Source: Desulfobulbus sp. Tol-SR (lineage in GTDB: Bacteria; Desulfobacterota; Desulfobulbia; Desulfobulbales; Desulfocapsaceae). From it: DNA of 64,000 nt. Below are positions 25,031-44,004 of the stretch, piece after piece. A program made the translations under genes and the position numbers. Position 1 is the first letter of the stretch, and each line of letters opens with the position of its first letter. Under the pieces are notes generated by a model. That model worked only from the letters and a program-made list of their open reading frames with translations. It had not been told where the DNA came from and ran no database searches. Where the stretch lies: contig JROS01000028.1 in assembly GCA_000769715.1 (NCBI GenBank), positions 1 through 64,000 on the forward strand, in the 5' to 3' direction.

Positions 25031-25222
25031 ATGGAAGACAGATGGCTATCTGTAGATGAGATCGGGGTTTATCTCGGTGTAAAGCGGGATACGGTCTACA
25101 AGTGGATCAGTGAAAAAGCCATGCCTGCCCACAAAATCGGTCGTCTCTGGAAGTTCAAGAAAGACGAAATCGACGAGTGGGTGCGTAAGGGCGGGACCGT
25201 GACCAGTGATAAGCATGACTGA
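25031..25222 (+). CDS. excisionase-type helix-turn-helix protein at head of BREX operon
   Basis: The 63-residue protein consists of one MerR/excisionase-like winged HTH (WLSVDEIGVYLGVKRDTVYK, then WKFKKDEIDEWV). The start at ATG 25031 has GGAG eight bases upstream; a GTG nine bases earlier is less well placed. Its last codons overlap the start of brxA, so it is the first gene of the operon. It is much smaller than the WYL-domain BrxR regulators described for some BREX loci. A role in controlling the operon is inferred from position and fold. Confidence 0.75.
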   Translation: MEDRWLSVDEIGVYLGVKRDTVYKWISEKAMPAHKIGRLWKFKKDEIDEWVRKGGTVTSDKHD

Positions 25223-26006
25223 AAGGCAAATTCATCTACTTCGGTTCGGGTTCGCCTTTCCGCAAGGCTCTCCCCATGTTTCGCGAACCATGATGTTGAC
25301 CGAATTGACCAGCCTTCTGGAATATATGTCAACCACAGATGCCGCTAAAACAGATTATACTCGCGCAATTGTCGAAGACAACTGCCTGGCGAAACGGACA
25401 GAAAAAAATCGGCAGATATCAAAACGATTTTTGGTCGAGCTCTATTCACTTGACCCAGGCAGACTGCTTTTTCGTTCTTTGCTCTTTTTCTGGCAACGAG
25501 ATCCTGCAGGTCGTCCTCTTCTGGCACTTCTCTGTGTGTATGCACGCGACGGTCTCCTTAGGTCCACCGCTAAATACATATTAAACCTTTCTCAGGGAGC
25601 ATCGGTTTCTCGACACTCAATGGAGGTTTTTTTAGACGGCCTTGATCCGGGGCGATATAGCCCGGCGAAGCTTGCCTCAAACGCCAAGAATTTAAACGCG
25701 ACATGGACCCAATCCGGTCACCTCGATGGGAGGGTCAGAAAAGTACGCTCCCGTGCCAATCCGACAGCCGGAAATGTTTCCTACGCTTTGCTCCTTGGCT
25801 ATCTTACAGGTGTCCGGGGACAGGCACTTTTTCAAACGGAATACACCAAGTTGCTTGATTGCCCCTTCGACAAGGCCACCCAGCTTGCCGAAGAGGCCTC
25901 TCGCAAAGGGTGGATTGTGTTCAAACGTGTAGGCGACGTCATCGAGGTTCTGTTCCCGAACTTGATCAATCAAGAAGAAATGGAGTGGCTTCGTGAGCAG
26001 AGTTAA
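25215..26006 (+). CDS. brxA: BREX protein BrxA (DUF1819)
   Basis: The 263-residue product is basic and helical and opens RQIHLLRFGFAFPQGSPHVSRTM. The length, the RTEKNRQISKRFLVELYSLDP segment and the position immediately before brxB identify it as BrxA of a type 1 BREX system. BrxA is a small DNA-binding protein with winged-helix-like ends whose role in phage exclusion is incompletely understood. The ATG at 25215 overlaps the HTH gene, and its stop overlaps brxB by 14 bases. Base composition is lower in GC than that of the flanking chromosome. Confidence 0.87.
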   Translation: MTERQIHLLRFGFAFPQGSPHVSRTMMLTELTSLLEYMSTTDAAKTDYTRAIVEDNCLAKRTEKNRQISKRFLVELYSLDPGRLLFRSLLFFWQRDPAGRPLLALLCVYARDGLLRSTAKYILNLSQGASVSRHSMEVFLDGLDPGRYSPAKLASNAKNLNATWTQSGHLDGRVRKVRSRANPTAGNVSYALLLGYLTGVRGQALFQTEYTKLLDCPFDKATQLAEEASRKGWIVFKRVGDVIEVLFPNLINQEEMEWLREQS

Positions 26007-26544
26007 ACGGCTTATACAGTCCTACAGCAAATACATTTCCGTCCCGTGGCGCGATGATGCCTCCGCTGCACAGCGCGTGATCTTCTGTGTCTACAACGAA
26101 AATGAAGAACGCTGGTTGCGGGCCAAAGTCGATGAATTTGAAATCGTCACCCGACAGGCAGGCCACGCATGGGCCATGTTCGACCTGACGGATACCTTTG
26201 CCATTTGGCTCGCCTCGCAACGGTATGCCAGAAGTTACTTCCAGAAGCCGCACCTGCTCTCCACGCTGCTGCCGAAATACCTCGCTTTCATCACCGAGGA
26301 GTTCGAGTCATTCCTCCAGAAGAACGATATCGGAGCTGATTCCGTCGTTGCGCTCCAGGGCGTCGGGACACTTTTCGGCTTTCTGAAAGTGAAAGAAGTC
26401 GTCGACAAGTTGGCCCCCATGGTCAAGGGGCGGCTGCTGGTCTTCTTCCCGGGCAGCTATGAAAACAACAACTACAGGCTGCTGGATGGCTATGACGGGT
26501 GGAATTATCTCGCTGTACCGATCACTGCGGACAAGGAATATTGA
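25993..26544 (+). CDS. brxB: BREX protein BrxB (DUF1788)
   Basis: The 183-residue protein fits DUF1788/BrxB: an opening IQSYSKYISVPWRDDASAAQRVIFCVYNE-type segment and the ending GRLLVFFPGSYENNNYRLLDGYDGWNYL. The latter resembles the nucleotide-binding-like end of this family. BrxB is required for phage restriction in type 1 systems and is thought to work with BrxC. It lies between brxA (overlap) and brxC (11-base gap). Confidence 0.88.
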   Translation: MSRVKRLIQSYSKYISVPWRDDASAAQRVIFCVYNENEERWLRAKVDEFEIVTRQAGHAWAMFDLTDTFAIWLASQRYARSYFQKPHLLSTLLPKYLAFITEEFESFLQKNDIGADSVVALQGVGTLFGFLKVKEVVDKLAPMVKGRLLVFFPGSYENNNYRLLDGYDGWNYLAVPITADKEY

Positions 26545-26555
26545 ACGAGGAATTG

Positions 26556-29500
26556 ATGATGAATAATCGTGACATTTACCAAAAAGATCCGGCCACCCGA
26601 AAACTGGTCAACGAGGGTGTGGCAAGCGTCAACGACGAGAAGACCAGCCAGGCGCTGGCGGTACTCCGTTACGAACTGGAGACCTTCGTTTGCGACGGCC
26701 AGTATGAAAAAGGGATGGCCCACATCCTCGAGACCTACTTGCAGAACATCGACCAGGCGCAGCAACCGGCTGTTTGGGTCAGTGGTTTTTACGGTTCAGG
26801 TAAATCGCATCTCGTCAAAATGCTCCGGGCGCTTTGGGTTGACACGGTTTTTGAGGATAGAGCTACTGCTCGAGGCATAGCCAGCCTGCCGCAAAGCATC
26901 CGTGACCACATCAAGGAGTTGAGTACCCAGGCCAAACGCCATGGAGGCTTGCATGCGGTATCTGGGACATTGGGCTCGAGCTCTCGTGACAAGTCGGTTC
27001 GAATGGCGCTGCTGGGATTAATTTTCCGATCCGCTGAGTTACCTGAGCAATACCCGATTGCCCGCTTCGTCATGTGGCTCAAGCACGAAGACATCTATGG
27101 CCAGGTTCGCGCCCATGTTGAGCAGAATGGTTTCAACTGGGACGAGGAGTTGGACAACTTTTATGTGGCAGAGGGCCTTCATGACGCTCTGGTTCAAGCC
27201 AAGCCCAAGCTCTTTTCATCGTCCGTATCCTGCGTCGAGACCCTGAACAATCTCTACCCTTACGTTCAGGACATTTCCAGCGATGACATGCTCAAGGCCA
27301 TTCGGCAGGCGCTGACGAAGGATGGCAAATTCCCGCTGACATTGGTTGTTCTTGATGAGGTTCAACAGTACATCGGCGAAGACAGCCAGCGCTCCATCGA
27401 CGTCCAGGAGGTGGTGGAAGCCTGCTGCAAGAACATTGGCGGCAAACTCCTCTTCATCGGCACCGGCCAGACCGCAGTGTCCGGCACCAGCAACCTGAAA
27501 AAGCTCGAGGGGCGGTTCACCATCCGTGTGGAACTTTCCGATGCCGATGTCGATGCGGTCATTCGCCAGGTCATTCTGGCCAAAAAACCTGAAGCGAAAA
27601 AGCCGATCGAGCAAATCATGCAAACCAACCTGGGCGAGATCTCCCGGCATCTGGCGGGCACGACCATCGGCCACAGGCAGGATGACATTCCTCATTTTCC
27701 CCAGGACTATCCGATCCTGCCGGTGCGCCGCCGTTTCTGGGAGAACACCCTCCGGGTCCTGGATCAGACCGGAACCGACAGCCAGCTTCGTAATCAGCTC
27801 AGCATGGCGCACAAGGTCATCCAGGCCAACCTGAGTGAACCTTTGGGCCATGTTGTCCCGGCCGACTATCTCTATTTCGACTCTGCCGACAAGTTGCTCC
27901 AGTCACGCATTCTGCCGCGCAAGGTTCACGAGAGGACGATGAGTTGGAACAAGGGCTCGGAGGAAGAACAGCTCATGGCGCGGGCCTGCGGCCTGGTGTT
28001 TCTCATCAACAAGCTCGCCGGCCAGAACGACGAAATCGGCATTCGGGCTACCATTGATACCCTCGCCGATCTTCTGGTCGAAAACCTTTCTCACGGCAGC
28101 AGCAGCTTGCGCAGCAAGTTGCCCAGCCTGCTCGATACATGCGAGTTGTTGATGAAGGTCGGTGATGAATACCGTATCCAGACCGAAGAGAGCGCGGCCT
28201 GGAGCGATGAGTTCCTGAGCCAGCGCTCTGCCTTGGGAAGCGAAAGCCACCGTATCGAGGCCGAACGCGACGACCGCATCCGCAAAAAATTCGGTGAGAT
28301 GGTACGCAAGCTCTCCCTGGCCCAGGGTAGCTCGAAGGTCACCCGCGATATCTATCCGGTGTTTGACGCCCAGCTTCCCACCGACGCCGATCAGCGCATT
28401 TGCGTCTGGGTTCGCGACGGATGGAGCATTGACGAAAACTCGGTGCGAGCCGATTCCCGCCAGGCCGGGAACCAATCCCCGACCGTTTTTGTGTTCATCC
28501 CCAAACGCTCGGCCGACGACCTGCGCCACTACCTCATCGATTACAAGGCCGCCAGTGCCACGCTGGATAAGCGCGGTGTTCCCAATACCCCGGAAGGCAC
28601 CGAAGCTCGTGCGGCCATGGAGACCACCAAACAAACCGCGGAAGGCAAGATCCGCGAACTTCTGGAAGAAGCCTTCTCCGGATCCCGAGTCTTTCAGGGC
28701 GGCGGCAATGAGATTATTGGGAACAATCTCCAGGAAATGACTCTCGAAGCGGCAGGAAATTCGCTGCAACGGCTCTTCCCCCAGTTTCATACCGCCGACC
28801 ACGTAGGCTGGTCCAAGGTTTATGAAAAAGCCCAGAAAGGCGCTCCCGATGCGCTCAAGGCCGTAGCTGACGAAGGCGAACCCGCCAAAAATCCGGTGTG
28901 CAAAGCCATTCTCGGTTTCATCGCCGGTGGCAAAAAGGGCGCGGACATCCGCACCCAGTTCGAGTCTTCACCCTACGGGTGGTCGCGTGACGCCGTGGAC
29001 GGCGGCCTGCAAGTGCTGTTGGTGGCCGGACTGATCCGGGCACAAGACGAGCGTGGCCAAACCCTCGACCCAAAGGAACTGGAGCGCAAAACCATTGGCA
29101 AGGTGATGTGCAAGGTGGAATCCGCCACCGTCACCACCGCCCAACGCATCCAGATCCGCAAGCTGCTGCAGAAGGTCGAGCTTTCGGCCAAGCAGGGCGA
29201 GGAGTTGGCCTATGTGCCACTGTTCCTGCAGAAAATGCTGGAGCTCGGCGACCAGGCTGGCGGCGAACCACCGAAACCGGCCCGACCGGACACCGCGTCC
29301 CTCGACGAAATCCGCCTCACAGCCGGCAATGAGCAACTGCTTGCCCTCTACAACCGGCGGGATGAACTGGGTACTCGCATCGATCACTGGACCGATCTCG
29401 TCGAGCGCATCGCCAAGCGCTGGCCGAACTGGACCGTGCTGAAACGTCTGATGGCCCACGCCTCCGGACTCCATAATGCCGAAGTCATCCTGGCCCAGGT

Positions 29501-29999
29501 CAAGACCATCGAGCAGCAGCATCAGCTTCTCGAGGAGCCGGACCTTGTCGCGCCGCTGATCGCCAACCTGACCCAGCTACTGCGCGATGAGCTCAACAAG
29601 CTCGATTGTGAATATGCCCGCCGTCACGAAAAAGGCCTCAAGCGTCTGGCAGACGACAGCAACTGGCAGCAACTGGAACCCGAGCAACGTTACGAACTCA
29701 TGTCTTCCCAGTTCCTGCATGAATCCGCCCGACCCAACGTCAAGGTCCAATCGACGAGTGACGTACTGGCCACGCTGGACCACTGCTCCCTGTCGATGTT
29801 TGCCGACCGCGTGGCGGCCATGCCGGCCCGCTTCGAAAACGTCGCCAGCGGTGCCGCCGAACTCTGCGAGCCCGAGGTTCAGTTCGTTCAGGTGCCACGC
29901 CGCACCCTCAAAACCGATGAGGAGATAGACGCCTGGGTCGAAGACGTGAAACAACAACTTAAGGGTGCCTTACAAGCAGGGCCTGTAGTGATCAGATAA
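26556..29999 (+). CDS. brxC: BREX P-loop ATPase BrxC
   Basis: This is the large P-loop protein of type 1 BREX (BrxC/PglY), 1147 residues, within the usual 1100-1250. It opens with NRDIYQKDPATRKLVNEGVASV, has Walker A GFYGSGKSH (residues 77-85) and Walker B VVLDEVQQY (264-272), followed by a long helical C-terminal part. Start codons ATG 26556 and 26559 are adjacent; GAGG at 26547-26550 suits the second slightly better. BrxC is needed for both host methylation and phage exclusion. The next gene begins 14 bases after the stop with its own strong ribosome-binding site (AAGGAGG). Confidence 0.93.
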   Translation: MMNNRDIYQKDPATRKLVNEGVASVNDEKTSQALAVLRYELETFVCDGQYEKGMAHILETYLQNIDQAQQPAVWVSGFYGSGKSHLVKMLRALWVDTVFEDRATARGIASLPQSIRDHIKELSTQAKRHGGLHAVSGTLGSSSRDKSVRMALLGLIFRSAELPEQYPIARFVMWLKHEDIYGQVRAHVEQNGFNWDEELDNFYVAEGLHDALVQAKPKLFSSSVSCVETLNNLYPYVQDISSDDMLKAIRQALTKDGKFPLTLVVLDEVQQYIGEDSQRSIDVQEVVEACCKNIGGKLLFIGTGQTAVSGTSNLKKLEGRFTIRVELSDADVDAVIRQVILAKKPEAKKPIEQIMQTNLGEISRHLAGTTIGHRQDDIPHFPQDYPILPVRRRFWENTLRVLDQTGTDSQLRNQLSMAHKVIQANLSEPLGHVVPADYLYFDSADKLLQSRILPRKVHERTMSWNKGSEEEQLMARACGLVFLINKLAGQNDEIGIRATIDTLADLLVENLSHGSSSLRSKLPSLLDTCELLMKVGDEYRIQTEESAAWSDEFLSQRSALGSESHRIEAERDDRIRKKFGEMVRKLSLAQGSSKVTRDIYPVFDAQLPTDADQRICVWVRDGWSIDENSVRADSRQAGNQSPTVFVFIPKRSADDLRHYLIDYKAASATLDKRGVPNTPEGTEARAAMETTKQTAEGKIRELLEEAFSGSRVFQGGGNEIIGNNLQEMTLEAAGNSLQRLFPQFHTADHVGWSKVYEKAQKGAPDALKAVADEGEPAKNPVCKAILGFIAGGKKGADIRTQFESSPYGWSRDAVDGGLQVLLVAGLIRAQDERGQTLDPKELERKTIGKVMCKVESATVTTAQRIQIRKLLQKVELSAKQGEELAYVPLFLQKMLELGDQAGGEPPKPARPDTASLDEIRLTAGNEQLLALYNRRDELGTRIDHWTDLVERIAKRWPNWTVLKRLMAHASGLHNAEVILAQVKTIEQQHQLLEEPDLVAPLIANLTQLLRDELNKLDCEYARRHEKGLKRLADDSNWQQLEPEQRYELMSSQFLHESARPNVKVQSTSDVLATLDHCSLSMFADRVAAMPARFENVASGAAELCEPEVQFVQVPRRTLKTDEEIDAWVEDVKQQLKGALQAGPVVIR

Positions 30000-30013
30000 A
30001 AAGGAGGCTCAAC

Positions 30014-31051
30014 ATGTTGGAAAAAATTAAATTTGAAAAATTCACAGCCTTCGAAAAACTCGAAGTGAAATTTTCTCCCGGGGTAAACATTTTCGTCGGC
30101 GAAAACGGCACCGGTAAAACCCACATCTTGAAGGCCGCCTATGCTGCCTGTGACATTGCCAAAAGCAAGGGAGGGTTTGCCGAGAAAATCAATAACGTTT
30201 TTTATCCCTCCGGTAAACAGATAGGCCGCTTGGTCAAGCGATCATCAGTGAGTAGCAATGGATCACTGGAGGTTATACGAAGGCTTGATGATGGCAAAAA
30301 GATTGCCTTGCGGCTCTCCCTTTCCAACCACACCACCAAACCCGACAAGGCAAAAATATCCGGTTCTCCAAAGGCATGGACAGAGAGCCCAATGGAAGCC
30401 GCCTATATCCCTGTCAAGGATATGATGGCAAATGCCCCTGGTTTTCGTTCACTTTATGAGGAGCGTGAAATACATTTCGAAGAAATCTATGTCGACATCA
30501 TCCGTAAAGCATTTCTCCCCTTGCTTAAAGGTCCGACGGATAAGCCTAGGAAACAGTTGCTGGAGAGTCTGCAGGAGGCCATGGATGGCAAGGTTGTCAC
30601 GAAAAATGAAGAGTTTTTTCTGCGCAGCAAGCATGGCGAACTTGAGTTCACCTTACTGGCAGAAGGCTTTCGCAAGATGGGTTTGCTCTGGATTTTGATC
30701 CAGAATGGTACCTTGTTGAATGGATCGGTACTTTTCTGGGATGAACCGGAAACCAACCTCAATCCACGCCTGATGAAAACCGTCGTGGGTATTTTGCTCG
30801 AACTCCAGAGGTTGGGTGTGCAGATATTTCTCACTACCCATGATTATGTGATTCTGAAAGAGTTCGATCTCCAGGCGAAAAAGGACGACAACATTCTCTT
30901 TCATAGCTTGTACCGGACGAAGGATACCGGTGAGATTGAAGTGGCATCGACCGATGACTATTTAAAACTCTCACCGAACGCCATCGACGACACTTTTGGC
31001 AGTATCGTTGATCGAGAAATTGAGAAATCAATGGAGGGACTTGGTAAATGA
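30014..31051 (+). CDS. AAA-type ATPase of an embedded two-gene module
   Basis: The 345-residue ATPase is of the AAA_15/AAA_21 (OLD/SMC-like) type. It shows Walker A GENGTGKT (residues 29-36), a combined Walker B SVLFWDEPETNLNP (238-251) and the switch-histidine motif LTTHDYVI (His276). The insert between the two halves of the ATPase is short and lacks a long coiled coil, and there is no C-terminal TOPRIM nuclease. It is not a core BREX gene. It overlaps the next gene (ATGA), a small protein with a nuclease-like signature, so the two probably form an ATPase-effector pair resembling, but not identical to, PARIS (AriA/AriB) or Septu. Its specific function is unknown. Confidence 0.8.
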   Translation: MLEKIKFEKFTAFEKLEVKFSPGVNIFVGENGTGKTHILKAAYAACDIAKSKGGFAEKINNVFYPSGKQIGRLVKRSSVSSNGSLEVIRRLDDGKKIALRLSLSNHTTKPDKAKISGSPKAWTESPMEAAYIPVKDMMANAPGFRSLYEEREIHFEEIYVDIIRKAFLPLLKGPTDKPRKQLLESLQEAMDGKVVTKNEEFFLRSKHGELEFTLLAEGFRKMGLLWILIQNGTLLNGSVLFWDEPETNLNPRLMKTVVGILLELQRLGVQIFLTTHDYVILKEFDLQAKKDDNILFHSLYRTKDTGEIEVASTDDYLKLSPNAIDDTFGSIVDREIEKSMEGLGK

Positions 31052-31575
31052 AGGTCGATGCCGATGGCTTCTCTTTTGATTTTACCAATGCGCTGGATGC
31101 GTTTGTTTTCGACGAGAAAGACAAGACGAAACCCACCTATCACGGCCAGCCAATGAAGGCCGTGGATATCATTGCCGAGTTCCCGGACGCTTACATCTTT
31201 GTAGAAATGAAGGATTTTAACGATCCGGCAGCCTATGACACGAAAGACTTCTCTACCGAAGAGGAACTGAAGGCCAAAAGGGCAGGCTTTAAGTGGTTGA
31301 AAAATTATCTCAAATACAAGTGCCGAGACACTTACCTTTTTCGCCATGCCGAACAAAAGGCCGAGAAACCGATTCATTACATCTGTCTGCTGACCTTTGA
31401 CAATGCCTTGAACACAGCCGTGCGAAAAACGCTTTCCAAGGAATTACCTGTCGGGCTGGCATCCAAACGATGGAAACAGGAACTCGTTAAAAGTTGCCAG
31501 GTGGTGAACGTGGCCAAATGGAATGAAAATTTTCCCAAATGGCCGGTGAGCCACGCTTCAGCCGAGGGGGCATGA
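31048..31575 (+). CDS. candidate PD-(D/E)XK-like effector, partner of the preceding ATPase
   Basis: I do not recognise this 175-residue protein as a named family. Its N-terminal half shows Asp40 in AVDIIAEFPDAYIFVEMKDF, followed by Glu53-Met-Lys55. Asp, then ExK on a beta strand about 13 residues later, is the core pattern of PD-(D/E)XK nucleases, and the residues around it alternate as expected for strands. A helical segment with conserved-looking basic residues (FKWLKNYLKYK) follows. The gene overlaps the ATPase stop by four bases and its own last codon overlaps the pglX start. A nuclease effector is therefore plausible but rests on the motif alone. Confidence 0.65.
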   Translation: MKVDADGFSFDFTNALDAFVFDEKDKTKPTYHGQPMKAVDIIAEFPDAYIFVEMKDFNDPAAYDTKDFSTEEELKAKRAGFKWLKNYLKYKCRDTYLFRHAEQKAEKPIHYICLLTFDNALNTAVRKTLSKELPVGLASKRWKQELVKSCQVVNVAKWNENFPKWPVSHASAEGA

Positions 31576-34500
31576 TGCAGCCGCTGGACAAAACATTAAG
31601 GAACCGACTCGAGCGCACCATCAGGGAGGCGCGGGATATCGCTGAGGACGCCGCTCGTGCCGCGCTGGAACAGCTTGGTGTCGGTGAAGCCGCGCCCTTT
31701 GTCCACCTGAGCGAACAGGACCGGGAACTGCGCCGTAAGCTGCGCGTCCACGGCCGCCAACTTGGTGATTCCCTGAATGGCGGCAAGATCCAGACCATGG
31801 ACTGCCTGAAAGAAGAGATCGCCTACGAGCACTGGCACCGCATGCTATTCGCCCGCTTCCTGGCGGATAACAACCTGTTGATGTATCCCGACCCGGATGA
31901 CCCCGTGGCGGTCACCCTCGAAGAGTGTGAAGACCTTGCCGCCGATGAAGGCGCGGCCAACGGCTGGGAGCTGGCCGCCCGTTTCGCCGCCCGCATGCTG
32001 CCGCAGATATTCCGGCAGGGTTCCCCGGTCTTCCAACTGGTGCTGCCACCGGAGCATCAGCACAAGCTGGAGCGCCTGGTGGCCGATCTGTCGCTGGAAG
32101 TGTTCACCGCCTCCGACAGCCTCGGCTGGGTCTATCAATTCTGGCAGGCCAAGAAGAAGGACGAGGTCAACGCCTCCGAGGTCAAGATCGGCGCACGGGA
32201 GCTGCCCGCCGTCACCCAGCTCTTCACCGAACCCTACATGGTCAGCTTTCTGCTCGACAACTCCCTGGGGGCCTGGTGGGCGGCACGGCGGCTCATCGAG
32301 ACCGACCTTAAAAACGCCAGCAGCGAAGAGGAACTACGCCGGAAGGCGGCGATCCCCGGTGTGCCGCTGGACTATCTGCGCTTTGTGCAGCAGGAAGACG
32401 GCACCTGGACACCGGCGGCCGGAACCTTCAACGGCTGGCCGAAGCAGCTTGCCGACCTGAAGACCCTCGACCCCTGCTGCGGCTCGGGCCATTTCCTGGT
32501 GGCAGCCTTGCTGATGCTGGTGCCGATGCGCATGGAGCGTGATGGTTTTTCAGCCAGGGAGGCGGTGGACGCAGTGCTGCGGGAAAACATCCATGGCCTG
32601 GAACTGGACCAACGCTGCGTGGAGCTGGCCGCTTTTGCCCTGGCGCTGACCGCATGGAAATACCCGAGCGCTGGCGGCTACCGCGTGTTGCCGGAATTGA
32701 ATGTGGCGTGCTCCGGTTTGTCGATCAGCGCCAAAAAAGAGGACTGGTTGGCGCTGGCTGGAGACAACACCAACCTGCGGATAGCACTCGAAGAGCTTTA
32801 CAAACAGTTCAAGGACGCACCGGTACTCGGCAGCCTGATCAATCCCGAAGCGAGCCTGGGCAAGGGTTCGCTGTTTGAAATGAAATGGGAAGACGTTGGA
32901 CCGCTACTCACGAAAGCGTTAGCCGAAGAGAAAGATGACGTAAAAAATGAGATGGGCGTTGTTGCAAGCGGCATTGCTAAAGCGTCTTTGTTAATGATTA
33001 AGGGTTATGATTTGCTTATTACAAACGTACCTTATCTGGTGCGTGGAAAACATAACGATGAGATAAAAAAATATCTTGAAACTCATTTTTCCGACAGCAA
33101 GCATGATCTTGCGTATGGTTTCTTGATTCGATGCCTCCAGTATTTAAATGAATCTGGAAATGCATCTGTAGTTTTACCTGAGAACTGGCTCTACATAAAC
33201 CCTTGCCAGAATTTCAGAAAACGCCTTATTGATAAATATGAACTAAATTCAATAAATCGGCTTGGCCCAGGCGCATTTCAAACGATTTCAGGAGAAGTCG
33301 TCAAAGGGCTCTTGGTGTCTATATGCAATAAAAAACCACTCCCAAGGCATCAGTTTTTTGGGATTGACGCATGGGCAGCACAAGGGCCTGACAACAAAGC
33401 TCAATCTCTCATTTATGATAGGTTGCTATGGGCTGGTCAAGCTGACCAAAAGAAAAATCCGGATTCCAGAATCAGTCTTGCCGAGATTGACGGCGGCGCT
33501 TTGCTTTCAAAATTCGCAGAAGGCCTTCATGGCCAAGGTACATTTGATAAGAATTGTTATGTATTCCAGTTCTGGGAGGTTCAGTATTTCCATGATATTT
33601 GGGAACCACAACAGTCAACACCAAATAAAAGAGAACTTTCGGATTACGGTGCTTCACAGATATTTCGGTGGGAAAAAGGAAAGGGGCTCCTATACAGTTT
33701 CATTCAACAGAAAAAGGAGACTGGTTATACATCTGGAAAATGGAAAGCAGGTGTTAACATTTGGGGAAGCTCTGGAATTGCTGTATCAGGTATAGGCTAC
33801 TTGTATATTAGACCTTATCTTGGAAAAGCATTTGATGAAAATATCGCCGTAATACATCCTCGAAATCAGATAGACCTCCCTGCAATAAGCCTTTTTGTTG
33901 AATCTGACGACTTTCAGAGGCAACTTAAGCAGATAGATAGTAATCTCAAGGCGAGTTGCAATACGCTTGTAAAGGTCCCGTTTGATTTAGAACATTGGGA
34001 GTCGATTGCAAAAAATGCTTACCCTCAGGGTCTGCCAAAACCATGCTCCCAGGATCCCTCTCAATGGATCTTCCATGGTCACCCCGCTAATAGTAGGGAT
34101 ACTCTCCAAGTCGCCACTGCCCGCCTCCTCGGCTACAGCTGGCCTGCCGAACTGGACCCGAACATGGAACTGGCTGACGAGCAGCGCGAATGGGTCAAGC
34201 GCTGCGCGTCCCTGGCGAGCTACGCCGATGATGACGGCATCGTCTGCATCCCGCCGGTGCGCGGAGAGGCTTCGGCGGCCGACCGTCTGCTGAACCTGCT
34301 GGCCGCCGCCTACGGCGATGCCTGGTCCAATGACACCCTGGCCGCGCTGCTGAAGAGCGCCGATCACGCGGGCAAAACACTGGAGACCTGGCTGCGGGAG
34401 AAGTTCTTCACCCAGCACTGCAAGCTGTTTCAGCACCGTCCCTTCATCTGGCACATCTGGGATGGCCTGCAGGGCGGCTTCGCGGCCCTGGTCAACTACC

Positions 34501-34955: not shown

Positions 34956-34970
34956 CATTAGGGCTTCTCC

Positions 34971-35537
34971 ATGGGCGATTTACAAACAGTGAAAACCCTA
35001 CCCAGCTTCCTGCGCTTCCTCTTCAGCCCGTTCTTTCGTAATTGGTGGGCTGTGCTCACCGGATGCGCGTCGATCCTTGCAATGTATATCACCCCTTCGC
35101 ATGGCATTACGCTGAGTGGCGCTGCGATGATGACTGCCACTTTCGGCGTTCTCTCGCTGATCTTCATAACCCTTTCGGTCCTTGGCCAAGGCTGGCAGCT
35201 TTATATCGGGCAATTGGGCGGGGTGCAGGTAACGTCGTTTGAACGTAATCGCGATATGCCAGAGGGATGGGTCTTTGTTCTTGTCGGTGACATCGATTTT
35301 GCCGTTGGAACTGTAATCGATATCCACAAAAAGACTGGTGCGGCAGAAGTGCCCCTCTCGCTTGTTCGGATTACCTCCCGAAACTCGTGCGGTGCGTACC
35401 AGGCTACCTCCATCGGGAAGATCAATCCAACCCACATTAAAGAACATGCGGCAGGAAGTCTCCGACCGATGGATCTGATCGTTCGCACTTCCATCGACCT
35501 GCAACGCATAAAGGAGGTAGCCAATGACCTCGGGTAA
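34971..35537 (+). CDS. two-helix membrane protein, partner of TIR gene
   Basis: The 188-residue protein has no family that I recognise. Two hydrophobic helices (about residues 26-45 and 48-72, the latter including MMTATFGVLSLIFITLSVLG) form a hairpin near the N-terminus. A soluble, strand-rich domain of about 110 residues follows (GWVFVLVGDIDFAVGTVIDI, then IVRTSIDLQRI). Its final 14 bases overlap the start of the TIR-domain gene, so the two are likely made together. A membrane-disrupting or membrane-tethering role in an abortive defence is a guess. It begins 15 bases after pglX. Confidence 0.7.
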   Translation: MGDLQTVKTLPSFLRFLFSPFFRNWWAVLTGCASILAMYITPSHGITLSGAAMMTATFGVLSLIFITLSVLGQGWQLYIGQLGGVQVTSFERNRDMPEGWVFVLVGDIDFAVGTVIDIHKKTGAAEVPLSLVRITSRNSCGAYQATSIGKINPTHIKEHAAGSLRPMDLIVRTSIDLQRIKEVANDLG

Positions 35538-36480
35538 AAAGGTCTTTCTCAGCCACTCCCACAATGATAGGGAATTCGTGGAGTGCTTAGCCCGTGCCCT
35601 TATAGCCCAGGGACAAGATGTGTGGTTTGACAAGTGGGACATTCAACCAGGTGACTCGATCGTCAGCAAAATCTTCGAGGAGGGTCTCGCCAACGCCGCA
35701 GCCTTTGCCATTGTGCTCTCGAAGGAGAGTGTTCGCTCAAGTTGGGTGCGTGAAGAACTGAACGTGGCGACGATACGGCGCATTGAGGACCTGGTTCGTG
35801 TTGTCCCCATTCTCAAGGAAGATGTAGAAATCCCGACTGCACTTCGCGCCCTCCACTGGGTGGACATGCGGACTGACTTTGACGGTGGAGTGAGGTCTAT
35901 TCTCAATGCGATTGCTGGGATATCGGATAAACCGCCACTAGGCGAAACTCCAGCACACTTGCAGTTGATTGTACAGCCCGTTGCCGGATTATCTCGGCTG
36001 GCTTTGACAGTTGGGCTTTATCTCGTTCGAGCAACAGATGTTGATGAACCATTCATGCGGGCAGTCCGAAATGTAGACCTTGCTGAGGCTCTTCATCTTA
36101 CCCCAACTGAACTCAATGACGCAGTGGATGAATTGGAGTCACAAGGACTCGCTGAAACGAACAAGGAAATAGGTACACACCCCTATGATTTCGGATTTGT
36201 CGAGGCAACATATCTCCTCTTCCATGCCCTCAGTGAATTTCTGGAGTACTCCCCAAGCGAGGACGTAAAGATAGTGCTCAATGCAATAGCCGCCCTTAAG
36301 AACGCGGAGGGGCCAGAGCTCCAAAGCCATACACAGTTGTCAATTGGCCGATTGAACAGAGCGGTGGCGTATATCAAGGATCATGGCTACGCTAAAGTAT
36401 TACTTGCCATTGGAACTGCCCCTTATGGATTCAAGAATGCTTCTGCTACGCGAGAAACACGTCAAGCGTCACTCGAATAA
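35524..36480 (+). CDS. TIR-domain protein with duplicated C-terminal domain
   Basis: The first 130 residues form a TIR domain: KKVFLSHSHNDREFVECLA, the WFDKWDIQPGDSI segment, and SSWVREEL with Trp74 and Glu78 in the position of the catalytic glutamate of TIR NADases. Enzymatic NAD+ cleavage, as in Thoeris and other TIR defences, is thus likely. Residues about 157-229 and 237-309 align without gaps at an offset of exactly 80 (LNDAV/LNRAV, IGTHPY/IGTAPY), forming a tandem repeat with a winged-helix-like look. AAAGGAGG precedes the ATG. The gene overlaps the two-helix membrane protein gene upstream. Confidence 0.82.
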   Translation: MTSGKKVFLSHSHNDREFVECLARALIAQGQDVWFDKWDIQPGDSIVSKIFEEGLANAAAFAIVLSKESVRSSWVREELNVATIRRIEDLVRVVPILKEDVEIPTALRALHWVDMRTDFDGGVRSILNAIAGISDKPPLGETPAHLQLIVQPVAGLSRLALTVGLYLVRATDVDEPFMRAVRNVDLAEALHLTPTELNDAVDELESQGLAETNKEIGTHPYDFGFVEATYLLFHALSEFLEYSPSEDVKIVLNAIAALKNAEGPELQSHTQLSIGRLNRAVAYIKDHGYAKVLLAIGTAPYGFKNASATRETRQASLE

Positions 36481-36521
36481 CCGGTGCTTCGACAAACCGA
36501 GGGAGTGAAGGAGATTATCCC

Positions 36522-37802
36522 ATGATTAAACATTTAAAAATGACCAATGTCGGGCCGGCAGCAAAGATGGAGTTGGAATTCGGCAAGCGACTGAACCTGC
36601 TCACCGGCGATAATGGACTGGGGAAGAGTTTTTTGCTGGATATTGCCTGGTGGGCACTGACACGCAGATGGCCTGCCGAAATTAACCAGAAACTAACCGC
36701 AGGAAAAAAGGCGCTCCCTGCTGCTGAAGGGAGAGCCAAAATCAGTTTCTCTTTTTCTGGCAAGAGCAAGGAAGAGAGTTATGAAAGCAGTTATCTTCGC
36801 AAGGAACAAGCCTGGACCGGACGGCCAGGAAGACCAGCAAATCCTGGATTGGTACTTTATGCTATGTCGGATGGTAGCTTTGCAGTCTGGGATCCAGATC
36901 GTAATTATTGGCGTACACAAGGTGGATTAGATGTTCAAGATAGGGTACCTGCCTATGTGTTTAGTCCTATGGAGGTCTGGGATGGACTTCCTGGGCAGGG
37001 TAGCACTTGGCTCTGCAATGGGCTCATTCGGGACTGGGCCGGTTGGCAGAAGGAGAAAGGAAGACCATTCAGTCAGTTAAAAAGTGTGTTAAAGGTGCTT
37101 TCTCCCTCGACCAAAGAAACCTTGGAGCCTGGCGATTTGACACGGATCAGTTTGGATGATGTGCGTGACATGCCAACCATACGCATGCCCTATCGGCAAG
37201 ATGTGGCTGTTGTGCATGCGTCGTCTGGTATGCGCCGTATCATGGCATTGGCCTACTTTCTAGTATGGGCATGGGAAGAACACAAACAAGCAGCCAAACA
37301 AATCGGTGAACCTGCTACGAAGCAAATCACCTTTCTTATTGACGAAATCGAGTCCCATCTGCATCCGAGCTGGCAGCGAAGCATTGTTCCGGCTCTGCTC
37401 TCTGTCATGGAGAAATTAACAAGAAACGCTGAGGTCCAACTGATCACTGCTACGCATTCTCCCTTGATAATGGCCTCTGTGGAACCAGTTTTCGACTCTC
37501 AAAAAGATGCTTGGTTTGATTTGGATCTCACCAAGGACAAAGTCACCCTCGCTAAGCGGCAGTTTGTACGCCAAGGTGAAGTATCTCGATGGCTAATGAG
37601 CGAAGCGTTTGACTTAGGCAGCGCCCGATCGTTACCGGCTGAAAATTTACTACGGCAAGCAGCTGAAATTTTATCCGAAAAAGTGATTGACCATGAGCGT
37701 GCAAAAGAGCTGGATGCTCAGTTGCGCGGCCTGCTAGGTGATACCGATCCTTTCTGGATTCGCTGGCGATATGTCGGTGAGAAGCAGGGGTGGTTGAAAT
37801 GA
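36522..37802 (+). CDS. Septu-like AAA ATPase (PtuA-like)
   Basis: The 426-residue ATPase of the SMC/OLD-like group has Walker A GDNGLGKS (residues 29-36), a signature-like ASSGMRRIMALAY (233-245), Walker B FLIDEIESHLHP (271-282) and the switch motif TATHSPL (309-315). With the HNH gene that overlaps it, it has the two-gene design of Septu (PtuA ATPase plus PtuB nuclease). Septu ATPases form filament-like or horseshoe complexes that control the nuclease. Here the identification is by architecture, not by alignment. AAGGAG precedes the start, 41 bases after the TIR gene. Confidence 0.75.
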   Translation: MIKHLKMTNVGPAAKMELEFGKRLNLLTGDNGLGKSFLLDIAWWALTRRWPAEINQKLTAGKKALPAAEGRAKISFSFSGKSKEESYESSYLRKEQAWTGRPGRPANPGLVLYAMSDGSFAVWDPDRNYWRTQGGLDVQDRVPAYVFSPMEVWDGLPGQGSTWLCNGLIRDWAGWQKEKGRPFSQLKSVLKVLSPSTKETLEPGDLTRISLDDVRDMPTIRMPYRQDVAVVHASSGMRRIMALAYFLVWAWEEHKQAAKQIGEPATKQITFLIDEIESHLHPSWQRSIVPALLSVMEKLTRNAEVQLITATHSPLIMASVEPVFDSQKDAWFDLDLTKDKVTLAKRQFVRQGEVSRWLMSEAFDLGSARSLPAENLLRQAAEILSEKVIDHERAKELDAQLRGLLGDTDPFWIRWRYVGEKQGWLK

Positions 37803-38398
37803 TACCTGTCGTAGCCCAACCTGAGCCCCGAACATTCGAAACTAAAGTCCGGAGGAAGGGCTTAGCCCATCTTGCCCAAAAAGGATATGCGCTGGATCAA
37901 CCTTTACCTCCAAGGGCAGATATTAACCCATATTGGCGCGACTGTCTAAACGATCTACATAAAGTTTATGGTGGTGTCTGTGCCTATCTCTGCGTTTTTT
38001 TTGAGCGTGTCATGGGAGGTGGTAGCGTTGACCACTTTATTGCCAAGTCAGCACATGCTGGGCTAGCATATGAATGGAATAATTATCGTCTTGTCTGTTC
38101 AACGATGAACAGCCGCAAACGTGATTACGCCGACGTTCTAGACCCTTTTTTTCTTGCTCCCGAGCTGTTTCGGCTTCAGCTTTCCACTGGACATATTTAT
38201 CCAAATCCGAACTTGGATATCAGGGCTATGCGCATCGTTGAAGAAACCATAGATCGACTTGGACTAGATGACCCTCAATGTCGCGAGTTACGTGCGCGAT
38301 GGTATCAGGACTATCTTGAGTATGGATTGCCTGCTGACTATATGAAAAAAAAGTCACCTTTCGTCTGGCAAGAAGCCAACCGTCAGGGGCTGCTATGA
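37799..38398 (+). CDS. HNH-type endonuclease (PtuB-like)
   Basis: The 199-residue product has an HNH-like core, GGVCAYLCVFFERV followed by SVDHFIAKS (Asp78-His79), EWNNYRLVC (Asn94/95) and MNSRKRD (Asn104). The final catalytic position is Asn rather than His. Cys61, Cys65 and Cys100 may hold a structural metal. The ATG at 37799 lies inside the stop of the ATPase gene, and its own stop overlaps the pglZ start (ATGA). It is the probable DNA-cutting effector of the Septu-like module. Confidence 0.78.
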   Translation: MIPVVAQPEPRTFETKVRRKGLAHLAQKGYALDQPLPPRADINPYWRDCLNDLHKVYGGVCAYLCVFFERVMGGGSVDHFIAKSAHAGLAYEWNNYRLVCSTMNSRKRDYADVLDPFFLAPELFRLQLSTGHIYPNPNLDIRAMRIVEETIDRLGLDDPQCRELRARWYQDYLEYGLPADYMKKKSPFVWQEANRQGLL

Positions 38399-40749
38399 GA
38401 ATCTGTGAATGCTTGATTAAAGCCGTCCGCGATGCCGCCGTCTTCAACCCCGAGGTTCAGGTGGCTCCAGCCTGTATTCTGTGGCCGGATCGTGACCGTC
38501 AATGGGAAGCCGTCATACCCATTCTTCAGGCCGAACTGCCTGAACTCATGATCCTGGGCGATTACGCGCCCGATAAGCGTATTGGGCCTGCCATCTGGTT
38601 GCGTTGCGTGATTGCCGGTCGTGCCGGGGATATTTCACTGCCCAAGGACCGGACACCGATTTTTTATCTCCCCGGCGTCAGCCGCCAGGATCTGCGGGCT
38701 ATTGAAACTTGCCCGGATCACCTTAAAGCCCTTGCCGAACTGCAATACCGGGGCGTTATCTGGTCGCAAATCAATGCGAAAGACTGGACGATCCTGGCCT
38801 ACCTGAAATCGGACCAGGGTGGGCTTGGGCTGGATGTGGCACAGGACAACGATACCAAGAATGCCATGCAGCTCGCGTTGTACCGGCTCCTTGACGAGGA
38901 TGTCTCCTTACTGAAAGGTAAGCGTCTTAACAAGGACTATTTCAACACCCTGCTGACCGGCGGCGACCCGATTCGCGACCTGTTGCAATGGCTCAATCAG
39001 GGGGATGCATTCCAGGCGGGTCGTGGCGAGAACGAATGGCAAGCCTTTGTCCAAATCTGCAAATCTCAATTGGCCTTTAACCCGCAGAATGAAGGCATCC
39101 TGGCGGGCAGTGTAAGGCTCGCAGAGCGCGTTGGTCCGTGGCATGCAGTCTGGGAGCGCTACTATGAGGCCCCTCAACGCTACCCCAACATCCCGGCGCA
39201 GATCAGGAAGTGCCGACCTCCGATCGACACTATCTTCTGGCACACGGGAGATGGATCTTTCGACGGCTGGCCACAATGGAATGATGACCAGGAGAGAAAC
39301 CTGCACCGAGATCTGATGGCCCTGGCCAAAGCACCTGCTCACGATGCGAGAGCAAAGATCAAAGAACTTGAAAAGCAGCACGGTCGCAGGCGCACTTTGG
39401 TATGGGCTGAACTGGGCGATGCGCCCCTGGCCTGCGCCTTGGAACATCTGGCTACCATCGCCGAGATCACGACAACCGCCTTTGCGGCGGGGACAGCGGA
39501 AGAACTCGCGACGGGATATTGCAATCATGGATGGCGGGTCGATGACGGACTGGTTCGAGCATTGGCGCAGGTCAATAATTCTGCCGATTTTGAAGCAGTG
39601 ACTACGGCTATCCGATCCGTTTACCTGCCGTGGGTAGAAGAATCAGCCCGTTATCTCCAGAAGTTGGTTGACGGTGCGTCTTACCCCGGGGGCACATGCC
39701 TGACGGCAAAGGCACCGCAGTTCGGCCCCGGTGACTGTATCCTGTTCGTCGACGGCCTTCGGTTCGATGCTGGAAAGCGCTTGGTTGAATCTTTGGAGAC
39801 ATGCGGGCTTGAGGTCTCCGAAGATCCGGCATGGGCAGCCCTGCCCAGCGTAACCGCGACCGGCAAAGCGGCAGTCACCCCGGTCAGAGACAGGATTCGG
39901 GGTGAGTATGGCAGTCCTGATTTTGAGCCGTCTGTAGCAGACACCGGTCAGTCATTAAAGGGTGGCTACCACCTGAAGAAATTGCTGACCGACGCGGGAT
40001 GGTCGATCCTTGAACGCTCTGCTGATGGCGATGGCCAAGGCATGGCTTGGTGTGAATTTGGGGACCTCGACCATGAAGGTCATGACCGTGGGTGGAAACT
40101 TGCCAAGCACATCGACGCCCTGATCCTGGAAATCAGAGACCGTATCACGGAGCTCCTGGCTGCAGGATGGAAGCGTGTTCGGGTTGTGACAGACCATGGC
40201 TGGTTGTTGCTGCCCGGTGGCTTGCCAAAAATCGAACTTCCCAGCGCTTTGGCGGACAACAAGTGGGGACGCTGCGCCTCCTTGAAGCCGGGGGCCACTA
40301 CCGAGGAGCGGCTTTATCCCTGGTATTGGAATCCGAACCAATACTTCGCCCTCGCTGACGGCGTCAGCTGCTTCAAGAACGGCGAAGAGTACAGCCATGG
40401 CGGATTGAGCCTGCAGGAATGCCTGACACTGCATATAACGGTAACACAAGGCGCTTCCGCTCAGGCGGCGACATCCGTCGCATTCACCGATGTGGTGTGG
40501 AAGGGGTTGCGCTGCACTGTCGCCGTGGATGGCAACTTCTCGGGTTTATCACTTGATGTTCGCAGCCAGGCCGGCAATGCCTTGTCCACTGTCGTCGTCG
40601 GCGTCAAACCGCTCAAAGACAACGGAACAGCCTCCGTGGTCGTCGAAGACGAGGACATGGAGGGGCGAGAAGCCTTTGTGGTTTTGATTGATTCCAATGG
40701 ATCGCTGGCCGCGCAAATCGCCACGGTAATTGGTGGAGCTAAACCATGA
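38395..40749 (+). CDS. pglZ: BREX alkaline-phosphatase-like protein PglZ
   Basis: PglZ, the hallmark of all BREX types, is 784 residues here. The C-terminal half has the alkaline-phosphatase-like metal-site motifs: ILFVDGLRFDAG (residues 449-460), VTDHGWLLLPGG (598-609) and YSHGGLSLQEC near 663. The N-terminal half is a helical domain of the type 1 subfamily. It overlaps the HNH gene upstream and brxL downstream by four bases each, so it is translated in register with both. In other systems PglZ is a metal-dependent nuclease/phosphodiesterase; its role in BREX is still being worked out. Confidence 0.93.
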   Translation: MRICECLIKAVRDAAVFNPEVQVAPACILWPDRDRQWEAVIPILQAELPELMILGDYAPDKRIGPAIWLRCVIAGRAGDISLPKDRTPIFYLPGVSRQDLRAIETCPDHLKALAELQYRGVIWSQINAKDWTILAYLKSDQGGLGLDVAQDNDTKNAMQLALYRLLDEDVSLLKGKRLNKDYFNTLLTGGDPIRDLLQWLNQGDAFQAGRGENEWQAFVQICKSQLAFNPQNEGILAGSVRLAERVGPWHAVWERYYEAPQRYPNIPAQIRKCRPPIDTIFWHTGDGSFDGWPQWNDDQERNLHRDLMALAKAPAHDARAKIKELEKQHGRRRTLVWAELGDAPLACALEHLATIAEITTTAFAAGTAEELATGYCNHGWRVDDGLVRALAQVNNSADFEAVTTAIRSVYLPWVEESARYLQKLVDGASYPGGTCLTAKAPQFGPGDCILFVDGLRFDAGKRLVESLETCGLEVSEDPAWAALPSVTATGKAAVTPVRDRIRGEYGSPDFEPSVADTGQSLKGGYHLKKLLTDAGWSILERSADGDGQGMAWCEFGDLDHEGHDRGWKLAKHIDALILEIRDRITELLAAGWKRVRVVTDHGWLLLPGGLPKIELPSALADNKWGRCASLKPGATTEERLYPWYWNPNQYFALADGVSCFKNGEEYSHGGLSLQECLTLHITVTQGASAQAATSVAFTDVVWKGLRCTVAVDGNFSGLSLDVRSQAGNALSTVVVGVKPLKDNGTASVVVEDEDMEGREAFVVLIDSNGSLAAQIATVIGGAKP

Positions 40750-42791
40750 TTGAAATGGACCGGATCGACAAAAAGGCGGCCTCATCGCTGGAGGGGTATT
40801 TGGTCCGGAAGGATCTGGTTCGGACGTTCAGCCGCCAGTTTCCGGTGCCGACGTATGTCGTCGAGTTTCTGCTCGGCCGCTACTGCGCCAGCACCGAGCA
40901 GGACGAGATCGATGAAGGTCTTGAGATCGTCCAGAGACAGCTCAGGTCACGAACGGTCAAAGCCGGAGAAGAAGAGCTCTTCAAGGCACGGGCCAGGGAA
41001 AACGGCGAGGTCAAAATCATCGATCTCATTACCGCTCGCCTGGATGCCAAGACCGACTCCTATATCGCAACACTACCCAGTTTGCGACTGACCGATGTCC
41101 GCATTAGCCCCGAACTGGTGAATGAACATGAACGGATGCTGACGGGCGGATTTTATGCTGAAATTGCGATAGAATATGATTCCGTCATCGCCCAGGAAAA
41201 ACCATCTCGGCCATTTGGGGTGAGGTCTTTGCGGGAGATCCAGTTATCGAAACGGGATGTACTCGACAACCTGGCCGAGGCCCGTAAAGCATTTACCACT
41301 GAAGAATGGAAGGTATTCCTGCTTCGTTCTATAGGGATAGAACCGGCTGGATTGTCTGAGCGACAACGTGATGCCTTGATGTTGCGGATGGTTCCCTTTG
41401 TTGAGCGTAACTACAATCTGGTGGAACTCGGCCCTAGGGGAACTGGCAAAAGCCATCTCTTCCAGCAGGTTTCTCCGTATGCGCATTTGATTTCCGGCGG
41501 TAAGGCAACGGTCGCCCAAATGTTTGTCAACAACGCGTCCGGTCGGCGTGGGTTGGTCTGCCAATACGATGTAGTCTGTTTTGATGAGATTTCCGGTATC
41601 TCCTTTGATCAGAAGGATGGTGTAAACATCATGAAGGGATTCATGGAGTCCGGGGAATTCAGCCGTGGCAAGGAGAGCATCCGCGCCGATGGCAGCATCG
41701 TTCTGGTCGGCAATTTCGATGTCGATGTTGAGCATCAGCAACGTATCGGGCACTTGTTCGGTCCCATGCCGCCGGAGATGCGAGACGACACCGCCTTCAT
41801 GGATCGTATCCATGCGTTTCTGCCTGGATGGGATGTCCCCAAAATCAGTAAAGAACTGTTGACGAATCACTTCGGTCTCGTCAGCGATTTCTTGTCCGAG
41901 TGCTGGAGCCAGCTTCGCAATCAAAGCAGAATAAGCGTACTGCAAAACCGGGTGTTTTTCGGAGGTGCTCTTTCCGGGCGCGATACGAACGCGGTCAATA
42001 AAACCGTGAGCGGCTTGCTTAAACTCCTCTATCCCGGTGAGGTTGAGGCAGCCGACGAGGATGTCGAATGGGCCGTCCATATAGCCATGGAGGCAAGACG
42101 TCGGGTTAAAGAACAACAGAAACGCATCGGCGCCGCCGAATTCCGCAACACCCACTTCAGTTATGTGGTGGGTGCTGATGGCGTCGAGAAGTTTGTTTCG
42201 ACCCCTGAATTACAAAGCGAAAACAACATTGGCTGTGATCCTCTTGAGCCTGGTCAGGTTTGGACCATCTCACCGGGTGGTGGAGAAGAGCATCCCGGAC
42301 TCTACCGCATCGAGATAAATGAAGGCCCTGGTTCGAGCGTCAAAATCCTCAATAAACCGGTGCCACCAGCATTTAAGGAAAGCATGGGATACGCCGAGCA
42401 GAACCTCTACGCTCGGTCTATGCAACTGGTCGGTGACAAAGACCCTCGACACCATGAATTCACCGCGCAACTCCGAGCCTTCGATGCTTCGAAGTCCGGC
42501 GCAAAGCTCGGCATGGCATCACTGATTGCGCTCTGCACAGCCTTATTGAAGAAAAGCGTACGCGGCGGTCTGATTATCGTGGGAGAGATCAATCTAGGCG
42601 GCTCTATCGAGTCGATTCACAACCCAGTCACCATTGCCGAGATTGCGGTTGAGAAAGGTGCTTCGGCGCTGTTGATGCCGGTGGCCTGCCGTCGGCAGCT
42701 CTTTGATCTGTCGGATGATATGGCAACAAGGATCGACATTCAGTTTTATTCCGATGCCAGGGATGCCCTCCTGAAGGCAATGGTAGAGTGA
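40746..42791 (+). CDS. brxL: BREX Lon-like AAA+ protein BrxL
   Basis: The 681-residue protein has an N-terminal domain (about 1-215), an AAA+ core with Walker A GPRGTGKSH (residues 229-237) and Walker B VCFDEISGI, and a C-terminal Lon-protease-like fold (SGAKLGMASLIALCTALL, then GGLIIVGEINLGGSI). The position expected for the Lon catalytic serine reads AKLG rather than PSAG, in line with reports that BrxL is a DNA-binding motor rather than an active protease. It is the last gene of the type 1 BREX operon. Confidence 0.93.
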   Translation: MIEMDRIDKKAASSLEGYLVRKDLVRTFSRQFPVPTYVVEFLLGRYCASTEQDEIDEGLEIVQRQLRSRTVKAGEEELFKARARENGEVKIIDLITARLDAKTDSYIATLPSLRLTDVRISPELVNEHERMLTGGFYAEIAIEYDSVIAQEKPSRPFGVRSLREIQLSKRDVLDNLAEARKAFTTEEWKVFLLRSIGIEPAGLSERQRDALMLRMVPFVERNYNLVELGPRGTGKSHLFQQVSPYAHLISGGKATVAQMFVNNASGRRGLVCQYDVVCFDEISGISFDQKDGVNIMKGFMESGEFSRGKESIRADGSIVLVGNFDVDVEHQQRIGHLFGPMPPEMRDDTAFMDRIHAFLPGWDVPKISKELLTNHFGLVSDFLSECWSQLRNQSRISVLQNRVFFGGALSGRDTNAVNKTVSGLLKLLYPGEVEAADEDVEWAVHIAMEARRRVKEQQKRIGAAEFRNTHFSYVVGADGVEKFVSTPELQSENNIGCDPLEPGQVWTISPGGGEEHPGLYRIEINEGPGSSVKILNKPVPPAFKESMGYAEQNLYARSMQLVGDKDPRHHEFTAQLRAFDASKSGAKLGMASLIALCTALLKKSVRGGLIIVGEINLGGSIESIHNPVTIAEIAVEKGASALLMPVACRRQLFDLSDDMATRIDIQFYSDARDALLKAMVE

Positions 42792-43867: not shown

Positions 43868-44004
43868 CACGGCCCCACGATCGATACTTTTTCCGATTGC
43901 CGCTGTCATTTCCTTCATTCCCACGTTAAGATGACGATGAAATGACGGATACGGTTGCGTTTCACTCCCCTCTCACCCTGTTACCTCAGCTTACAGGAGG
44001 ATCC

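Follow-up and report, generated by a model that had tools for sequence, protein, structure and literature searches.

A complete type 1 BREX operon carrying three two-gene modules in two cargo slots in Desulfobulbus sp. Tol-SR

We analyzed a 64,000-nucleotide stretch of Desulfobulbus sp. Tol-SR (contig JROS01000028.1, positions 1 to 64,000 of the forward strand; hereafter, the window), part of a 4.21-Mb assembly in 203 contigs, and in it a type 1 bacteriophage exclusion (BREX) operon at positions 25031 to 42791. The core of the BREX family methylates host DNA and blocks the replication of unmethylated phage, and the hallmark of type 1 is methylation of a nonpalindromic 6-bp site together with phage exclusion. 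A preliminary description had proposed that all six type 1 core genes are present, intact and in canonical order, and that six genes of the same orientation are inserted, two between brxC and pglX and four between pglX and pglZ. Both proposals held: PADLOC models span almost the full length of each of brxA, brxB, brxC, pglX, pglZ and brxL, these genes are free of internal stops, the operon has zero N, and the six added genes all lie on the + strand at those two junctions. The operon span of 25031 to 42791 stood as well, except that position 25031 does not start brxA but a gene for a 63-amino-acid (aa) HTH_17 protein. The genes are as follows, with E values for model matches in brackets.

25031 to 25222, + strand: small HTH_17/excisionase-type DNA-binding protein, 63 aa, candidate regulator (HTH_17, 1.5e-16)
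25215 to 26006, + strand: brxA (PADLOC BrxA, 9.5e-108)
25993 to 26544, + strand: brxB, GTG start (PADLOC BrxB, 1.6e-81)
26559 to 29999, + strand: brxC (PADLOC BrxC, E=0, 1680.7 bits; Walker A GFYGSGKS)
30014 to 31051, + strand: HEC-02A, AAA_21-type ATPase, module 1 (PADLOC HEC-02A, 7.4e-130; AAA_21, 4.8e-25; Walker A GENGTGKT)
31048 to 31575, + strand: HEC-02B, candidate PD-(D/E)XK-type nuclease, 175 aa, module 1 (PADLOC HEC-02B, 1.0e-62)
31572 to 34955, + strand: pglX (brxX), adenine methyltransferase, ATG start (PADLOC PglX, E=0, 1705 bits)
34971 to 35537, + strand: probable membrane protein, 188 aa, module 2 (hydropathy; no PADLOC, Pfam or NCBIfam family)
35524 to 36480, + strand: TIR protein with C-terminal internal repeat, module 2 (TIR_2, 4.8e-29)
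36522 to 37802, + strand: PtuA, Septu ATPase, module 3 (PADLOC PtuA, 1.7e-188)
37790 to 38398, + strand: PtuB, Septu HNH-type nuclease, module 3 (PADLOC PtuB, 1.1e-71)
38395 to 40749, + strand: pglZ, type B (PADLOC, E=0, 1082.4 bits; NCBIfam BREX_PglZ_1_B, 962.8 bits)
40746 to 42791, + strand: brxL (PADLOC BrxL, 2.5e-301)

The PglZ protein is named "BREX-1 system phosphatase PglZ type B" by NCBIfam (962.8 bits; cut-off, 400). The operon shares with type 1 BREX of the PglZ type B the six core genes, their order and near full-length matches to curated models, and its two slots add six cargo genes to these; cargo is also present in most mapped relatives. The start of brxC is probably ATG 26559, because the BrxC profile match begins at residue 21 of the listed open reading frame (ORF), which is also open from GTG 26499. 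PglX reads NVPY at the site of the NPPY motif, which is absent there in four relatives too, and we do not claim that the enzyme is inactive. The HTH gene, relatives of which precede brxA in the BREX loci L033, L034, L038, L039, L053, L086 and L087, scored 81.3 bits against the NCBIfam MAD1 model of the methylation-associated defense system (cut-off, 80), hinting at a type of regulator in common with that system. The G+C content of the operon is 0.537, compared to 0.637 and 0.616 for its flanks, which fits acquisition from elsewhere.

The inserted genes form three pairs of defense or likely defense type, as had been proposed, namely, HEC-02A/B, a membrane protein with a TIR protein, and PtuA/PtuB, and none of them scores as a housekeeping family in PADLOC, Pfam or NCBIfam. 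Judging from their families, they may represent several abortive systems. The genes of the first pair adjoin each other and correspond to the PADLOC candidate system HEC-02, a label absent from the accessible part of PMC8565338. HEC-02B gave no Pfam match at E<=10, and its structure prediction was unusable (pLDDT, a per-residue confidence score, of 42). Residues D40, E53 and K55 are invariant across five HEC-02B sequences with identities down to 35%, and D40 together with E53-x-K55 would be compatible with a PD-(D/E)XK nuclease. In the third pair, the PtuA ATPase adjoins the HNH-type PtuB, the arrangement expected of Septu type I, and both genes match the PADLOC models strongly. PtuA also matched the solved PtuA structure 8ee4 (7.7e-6), while PtuB matched a solved PtuB at E=0.05 only and reached 35.0 bits (1.3e-8) against TIGR02646, below the cut-off of 52.15, which weighs against a Septu type I PtuB. 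Unlike Septu as otherwise known, the pair sits inside BREX, with ptuB overlapping pglZ by 4 bp.

Gene spacing in the operon is tight throughout. From the 5' end, the junctions measure -8 bp (HTH-brxA), -14 bp (brxA-brxB), 14 bp (brxB-brxC, from ATG 26559), 14 bp (brxC-hec2A), -4 bp (hec2A-hec2B), -4 bp (hec2B-pglX), 15 bp (pglX-membrane protein), -14 bp (membrane protein-TIR), 41 bp (TIR-ptuA), -13 bp (ptuA-ptuB), -4 bp (ptuB-pglZ) and -4 bp (pglZ-brxL), so that 11 of 12 overlap or are at most 15 bp long. This spacing favors a single predicted transcript of 17.7 kb. A consensus scan for promoter-like sites gave no excess over shuffled sequence (5 sites versus 10.6 ± 3.6) and one for terminator-like sites gave a slight excess (26 versus 21.2 ± 4.0), none of these falling on the + strand between operon genes. 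One weak promoter-like site (36489 to 36518, 9/12) lies directly before ptuA, in the only longer gap, and is a weak indication that Septu might have its own transcription start.

The use of these two junctions as cargo slots was then compared across related loci. With the window PglZ as query, 21 of the order's 257 genomes had a match at E<=0.001, and 12 of 395 in a phylum sample had one at E<=1e-60. Twenty-seven loci plus the window were brought into one orientation and mapped; gaps were measured between match ends, and the counts include the window. L042 (pglZ and brxL 17 bp apart) was left out of the counts, L051 contributes no counted slot because of its cut pglZ, and G148:C197, G630:C141 and G409:C93 lie outside the mapped set. 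Gaps of more than 300 bp were found at 9 of 15 brxC-pglX and 23 of 24 pglX-pglZ junctions, in agreement with the earlier statement that BREX loci hold extra genes at these two places. The three other junctions had 1 such gap in 49 (brxA-brxB, 0/13; brxB-brxC, 1/14; pglZ-brxL, 0/22). In 21 of the 24 pglX-pglZ slots there was an ORF of 100 aa or more on the operon strand, and in a plasmid collection all seven mapped loci had a pglX-pglZ gap above 300 bp, the annotated Methylomonas locus having a gene there too. Kinds of slot cargo, of each of which one representative was scanned, include Schlafen/AlbA_2 proteins, an AIPR/AbiU-like protein, AAA+DUF4276 pairs (HEC-01B), SMC-like ATPases, HEC-02 and Septu. 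The brxC-pglX slot holds HEC-02A at 80% identity or more in L033, L053 and L056, and the pglX-pglZ slot holds PtuAB in L036, L048, L086 and L081 (Aeromonas caviae; this 4.94-Mb record is listed as a plasmid, and its size suggests a chromosome). HEC-02A/B recurs in the same brxC-pglX slot even in a distant host, on Methylomonas koyamae plasmid pLM6 (Gammaproteobacteria; L085:16001-17616; HEC-02A identity, 35%), where the BREX system is of PglZ type A.

The operon had also been called unusually rich. It does carry more than most mapped relatives, but it is not exceptional: among the 14 loci for which both slots could be mapped, its 5,017 bp of total cargo takes fifth place, behind L056 (7,585 bp), L055 (7,555 bp), L060 (6,861 bp) and L033 (5,096 bp). 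In two loci whose slot 1 lies outside the fetched stretch, slot 2 alone exceeds the window total (L036, 9,272 bp; L048, 5,579 bp). L047, with a broken core, is in the junction counts and outside this ranking; its 4,876 bp is less than that of the window. There, opposite-strand genes lie between brxC and a pglX fragment (L047:4614-7170), and the locus looks broken. The operon is a real and intact locus of a well-described kind.

Ordinary defense-island clustering, with independent and self-regulated modules whose insertion is tolerated without any coupling to BREX, is compatible with this architecture, and as a rival to coupling we put it somewhat short of even odds. Relatives of HEC-02A are also found outside this kind of BREX, and the weak site before ptuA would suit a self-regulated module. 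In relatives, another cargo pair without a family match, which we take to be AbiE-like, follows a leader that is similar in L048 (4128 to 4200) and L043 (at the pglX end) and contains GTAAC/GTTAC repeats, which may be the pair's own operator. According to the part of PMC12373910 consulted, a GmrSD enzyme encoded within a BREX operon works without BREX activity. Mere tolerance of insertions accounts less well for the single orientation of the cargo, for overlapping or at most 15-bp junctions at both slot edges of the window and for the near absence of cargo at the three other junctions.

We then compared the histories of cargo and core. The closest PglZ found (85%) belongs to L053, from another order. 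In 100-bp steps, DNA identity between the window and L053 was 0.72 to 0.95 in brxC, 0.47 to 0.85 in the hec2A/B region and 0.70 to 0.92 in pglZ. Within pglX, it climbed to about 0.9 over the first 100 bp or so, was mostly 0.85 to 0.94 in the 5' part, fell to 0.46 to 0.73 in the middle, presumably the recognition region, and was mostly 0.84 to 0.94 in the 3' part. Slot 2 of L053 holds genes different from those of the window. In L033, from the same family, HEC-02A is 95.7% identical at the protein level, compared to 82% for BrxC, 63% for PglX and 73% for PglZ. Loci with alike flanking core segments carry differing cargo, and the sequence comparisons indicate that the histories of cargo and of core segments are in part separate.

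Terminal 50-residue pieces of the core genes were searched against 33 gaps, and remnants of core genes were found in five loci: a brxC tail in L033 (31 aa, 7.9e-8), a pglZ head in L048 (32 aa, 7.3e-16) and pglX tails in L050 (5.8e-11), L055 (6.5e-9) and L056 (9.1e-6). All five have the orientation of the operon and sit at the edge of a module. The L033 remnant is followed by a 14-bp spacer to hec2A, the same spacing as after brxC in the window, and the L048 pglZ head overlaps the ptuB stop by 4 bp, as pglZ does in the window. The remnants are only 45 to 77% identical to the gene end of their own locus, making copying during assembly unlikely; the L050 value is understated owing to unreadable codons in that locus's own pglX tail, which also make this remnant the least secure with regard to assembly. 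One reversed and three shuffled sets gave no matches. Among seven further loci held out, five were scanned (L088 and L089, the latter with a gap of about 1 kb, were left out as the length filter mapped no pglX), and one more remnant came from L086. It is a pglX tail (E=1.3e-4) flanked by ptuB and by an AAA-type pair similar to the AAA+DUF4276 pairs, with 32 of 33 bases, counted by eye, identical to the locus's own pglX tail.

Several matches were set aside: the pglX start in L047 and the pglZ start in L050, as these genes' own ends; own-end matches in L079 and L081; a pglZ-head-like stretch in L055 (4.1e-4), which contains a stop; and a pglX-tail-like match of 14 residues in L036 (E=0.02). Separately, in L091:11056-12351 a brxA match overlaps a match to the pglX C terminus and the fetched stretch matches neither brxB nor brxC; this BREX locus appears decayed or rearranged. 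A Methylomonas brxL DNA query had no match in E. coli genomes.

The remnants suggest that modules may accrete by recombination anchored in core genes. Most simply, homologous recombination within a core gene would bring in a new module at one end while the other end is, at least sometimes, joined illegitimately, so that the previous core-gene end stays next to the module already present. The same remnants could instead go back to a core gene that was duplicated in tandem and then decayed, which we consider rather doubtful. One relative does carry two full-length tandem pglX copies in a single BREX operon (L039:5960-12860), with an identity of 57% over their whole length and 0.86 across the first 100 columns. 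However, no module lies between these copies, and the L033 and L048 remnants sit at what seems to be the ancestral junction, with the spacer to hec2A and the ptuB overlap seen in the window.

A number of observations weigh against a chassis whose slots are filled through core-anchored exchange. The window itself contains no core-gene remnant, so that accretion there is argued by analogy. Of the 22 relatives' loci that have a cargo gap, 5 showed remnants, as did one of the five held-out loci scanned and none of nine plasmid-collection loci; in this last set the test was weaker, since the query ends came mostly from the phylum of the window and none could be taken from L079 or L081 themselves. 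By E value, the L086 match is within background: at E<=1e-3, 20 further shuffles gave one match, the 45.5 kb of window flanks gave one place (1.7e-4) and the held-out set gave two matches in 20 shuffles. The first part of brxA drops to 0.55 to 0.65 against L053 with no cargo there, indicating that exchange is not confined to the slots, and the L033 contrast is modest in DNA (hec2A, 0.81 to 0.89; brxC, 0.67 to 0.85; pglX start, 0.67 to 0.85). Neither is HEC-02A bound to BREX, being found at E<=1e-30 in 11 of the 257 genomes of the order, with eight of nine other HEC-02A genomes lacking a match to the window PglZ. Finally, it is motif, size and position that suggest a nuclease in HEC-02B and an effector in the membrane protein.

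Within module 2, the 188-aa membrane protein is the only inserted gene product without a PADLOC, Pfam or NCBIfam match at the limits used; it matched no PDB chain at E<=1, and PHROG and Pfam matches at loose limits were only weak. Its hydropathy exceeds 1.6 at residues 46 to 74, with a marginal peak at 100 to 119, and a low-confidence, unusable model (pLDDT 45) placed a helix at about residues 20 to 38. A search of the 395 phylum-sample genomes recovered the protein from the window's own genome alone, and a search of 257 genomes of the class recovered it from two, the second being G576, a Deltaproteobacteria metagenome-assembled genome with the one relative found (80% identity, MGTD01000018.1). 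No relatives were found in plasmids, phages or, by exact peptide patterns, viral contigs; single-protein searches of the contig collection likewise used exact peptide patterns, which reach close relatives only. The C-terminal region of the TIR protein was likewise matched in two of the order's 257 genomes and in no plasmid record, and both loci have the gene order pglX, membrane protein, TIR, ptuA, ptuB.

The TIR protein carries the WxxxE glutamate (W74-E78) and matches the NAD+ hydrolase AbTIR (8g83, 5.8e-10); by sequence, its TIR domain qualifies as a predicted TIR NADase. Its C-terminal region contains an internal repeat (score, 57; best of 2000 shuffles, 46) and is weakly winged-helix-like (MarR_2, 3.4e-4, under its cut-off). 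As in Thoeris, the TIR protein adjoins a partner gene, and a divergent Thoeris-type system, in which the TIR protein makes a signal sensed by a membrane effector, would accord with the WxxxE motif, the overlap of the two genes and a ThsB_TIR score of 22.8 bits (cut-off, 21.2), but this is unlikely, since the membrane protein and its relative match no ThsA model tried in PADLOC and no macro domain in Pfam at E<=10, and the TIR matches spread over many kinds of TIR protein, other TIR models scoring better than the best PADLOC ThsB (6.3e-10). By these comparisons, the membrane-TIR pair fits no catalogued model pair and, in the searched sets, occurs only in the window and one other BREX locus.

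Extra defense genes inside BREX operons are known. BREX clusters with extraneous antiphage genes are mentioned in PMC12707154, as far as its text was available, and the embedded GmrSD/BrxU enzymes resemble the window in placing an extra defense gene within the operon, yet in the portion of PMC12373910 consulted this is a single type IV enzyme, in contrast to three two-gene modules here. To the left of the island (21968 to 24072) lie an MlaD-domain gene and an ABC_trans_aux lipoprotein gene, and to its right (42929 to 45387) a sodium/calcium exchanger gene and a malonyl-CoA decarboxylase gene. A plasmid case of BREX with embedded GmrSD/BrxU was reportedly described by Picton in 2021.

ATPase and nuclease dyads within BREX were already catalogued by Rakesh and Krishnan (NAR 2026; PMC12839542), who, in the sections available, describe backup nucleases in BREX and related loci of at least 4,363 taxa, including OLD-ABC ATPases paired with HNH or PD-(D/E)XK partners. 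PtuAB corresponds to their ATPase-HNH dyad and HEC-02 to the ATPase-PD-(D/E)XK dyad if HEC-02B is a nuclease; the main text, as available, does not contain the words TIR or Septu, nor does its section 35 describe core-gene remnants. Among the matches listed for open-licence PubMed Central, no title or abstract opening describes a TIR/membrane module inside BREX or the entry of cargo into BREX by recombination. What is new here is the membrane-TIR pair, the partly separate histories of cargo and core, and the core-gene-end remnants in six related loci.

Taken together, we hold with a probability of roughly 0.8 that the window carries a complete and probably horizontally acquired type 1 BREX operon of PglZ type B, acting as a chassis with two cargo slots. 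In such an operon, the core would methylate host DNA and stop the replication of unmethylated phage, the ATPase-nuclease pairs HEC-02 and Septu would act as backup effectors, and the TIR enzyme might consume NAD+ or make a nucleotide signal acting via the adjacent membrane protein. The broader proposal, that type 1 BREX is in general a modular chassis whose slots are filled by recombination at the brxC, pglX and pglZ ends, with scars recording the order of acquisition, and that the window adds an undescribed membrane-TIR module found so far only in BREX, is tentative, and we would not yet bet on it. The points worth pursuing are the uncatalogued membrane-TIR pair, which is a small and testable candidate defense module, and the core-gene remnants in relatives. 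Modules stacked in one BREX operon make it possible to test if backup effectors need the core itself or just use the same promoter, and core-gene scars, if general, would show from sequence how defense modules enter the middle of an operon without breaking it.

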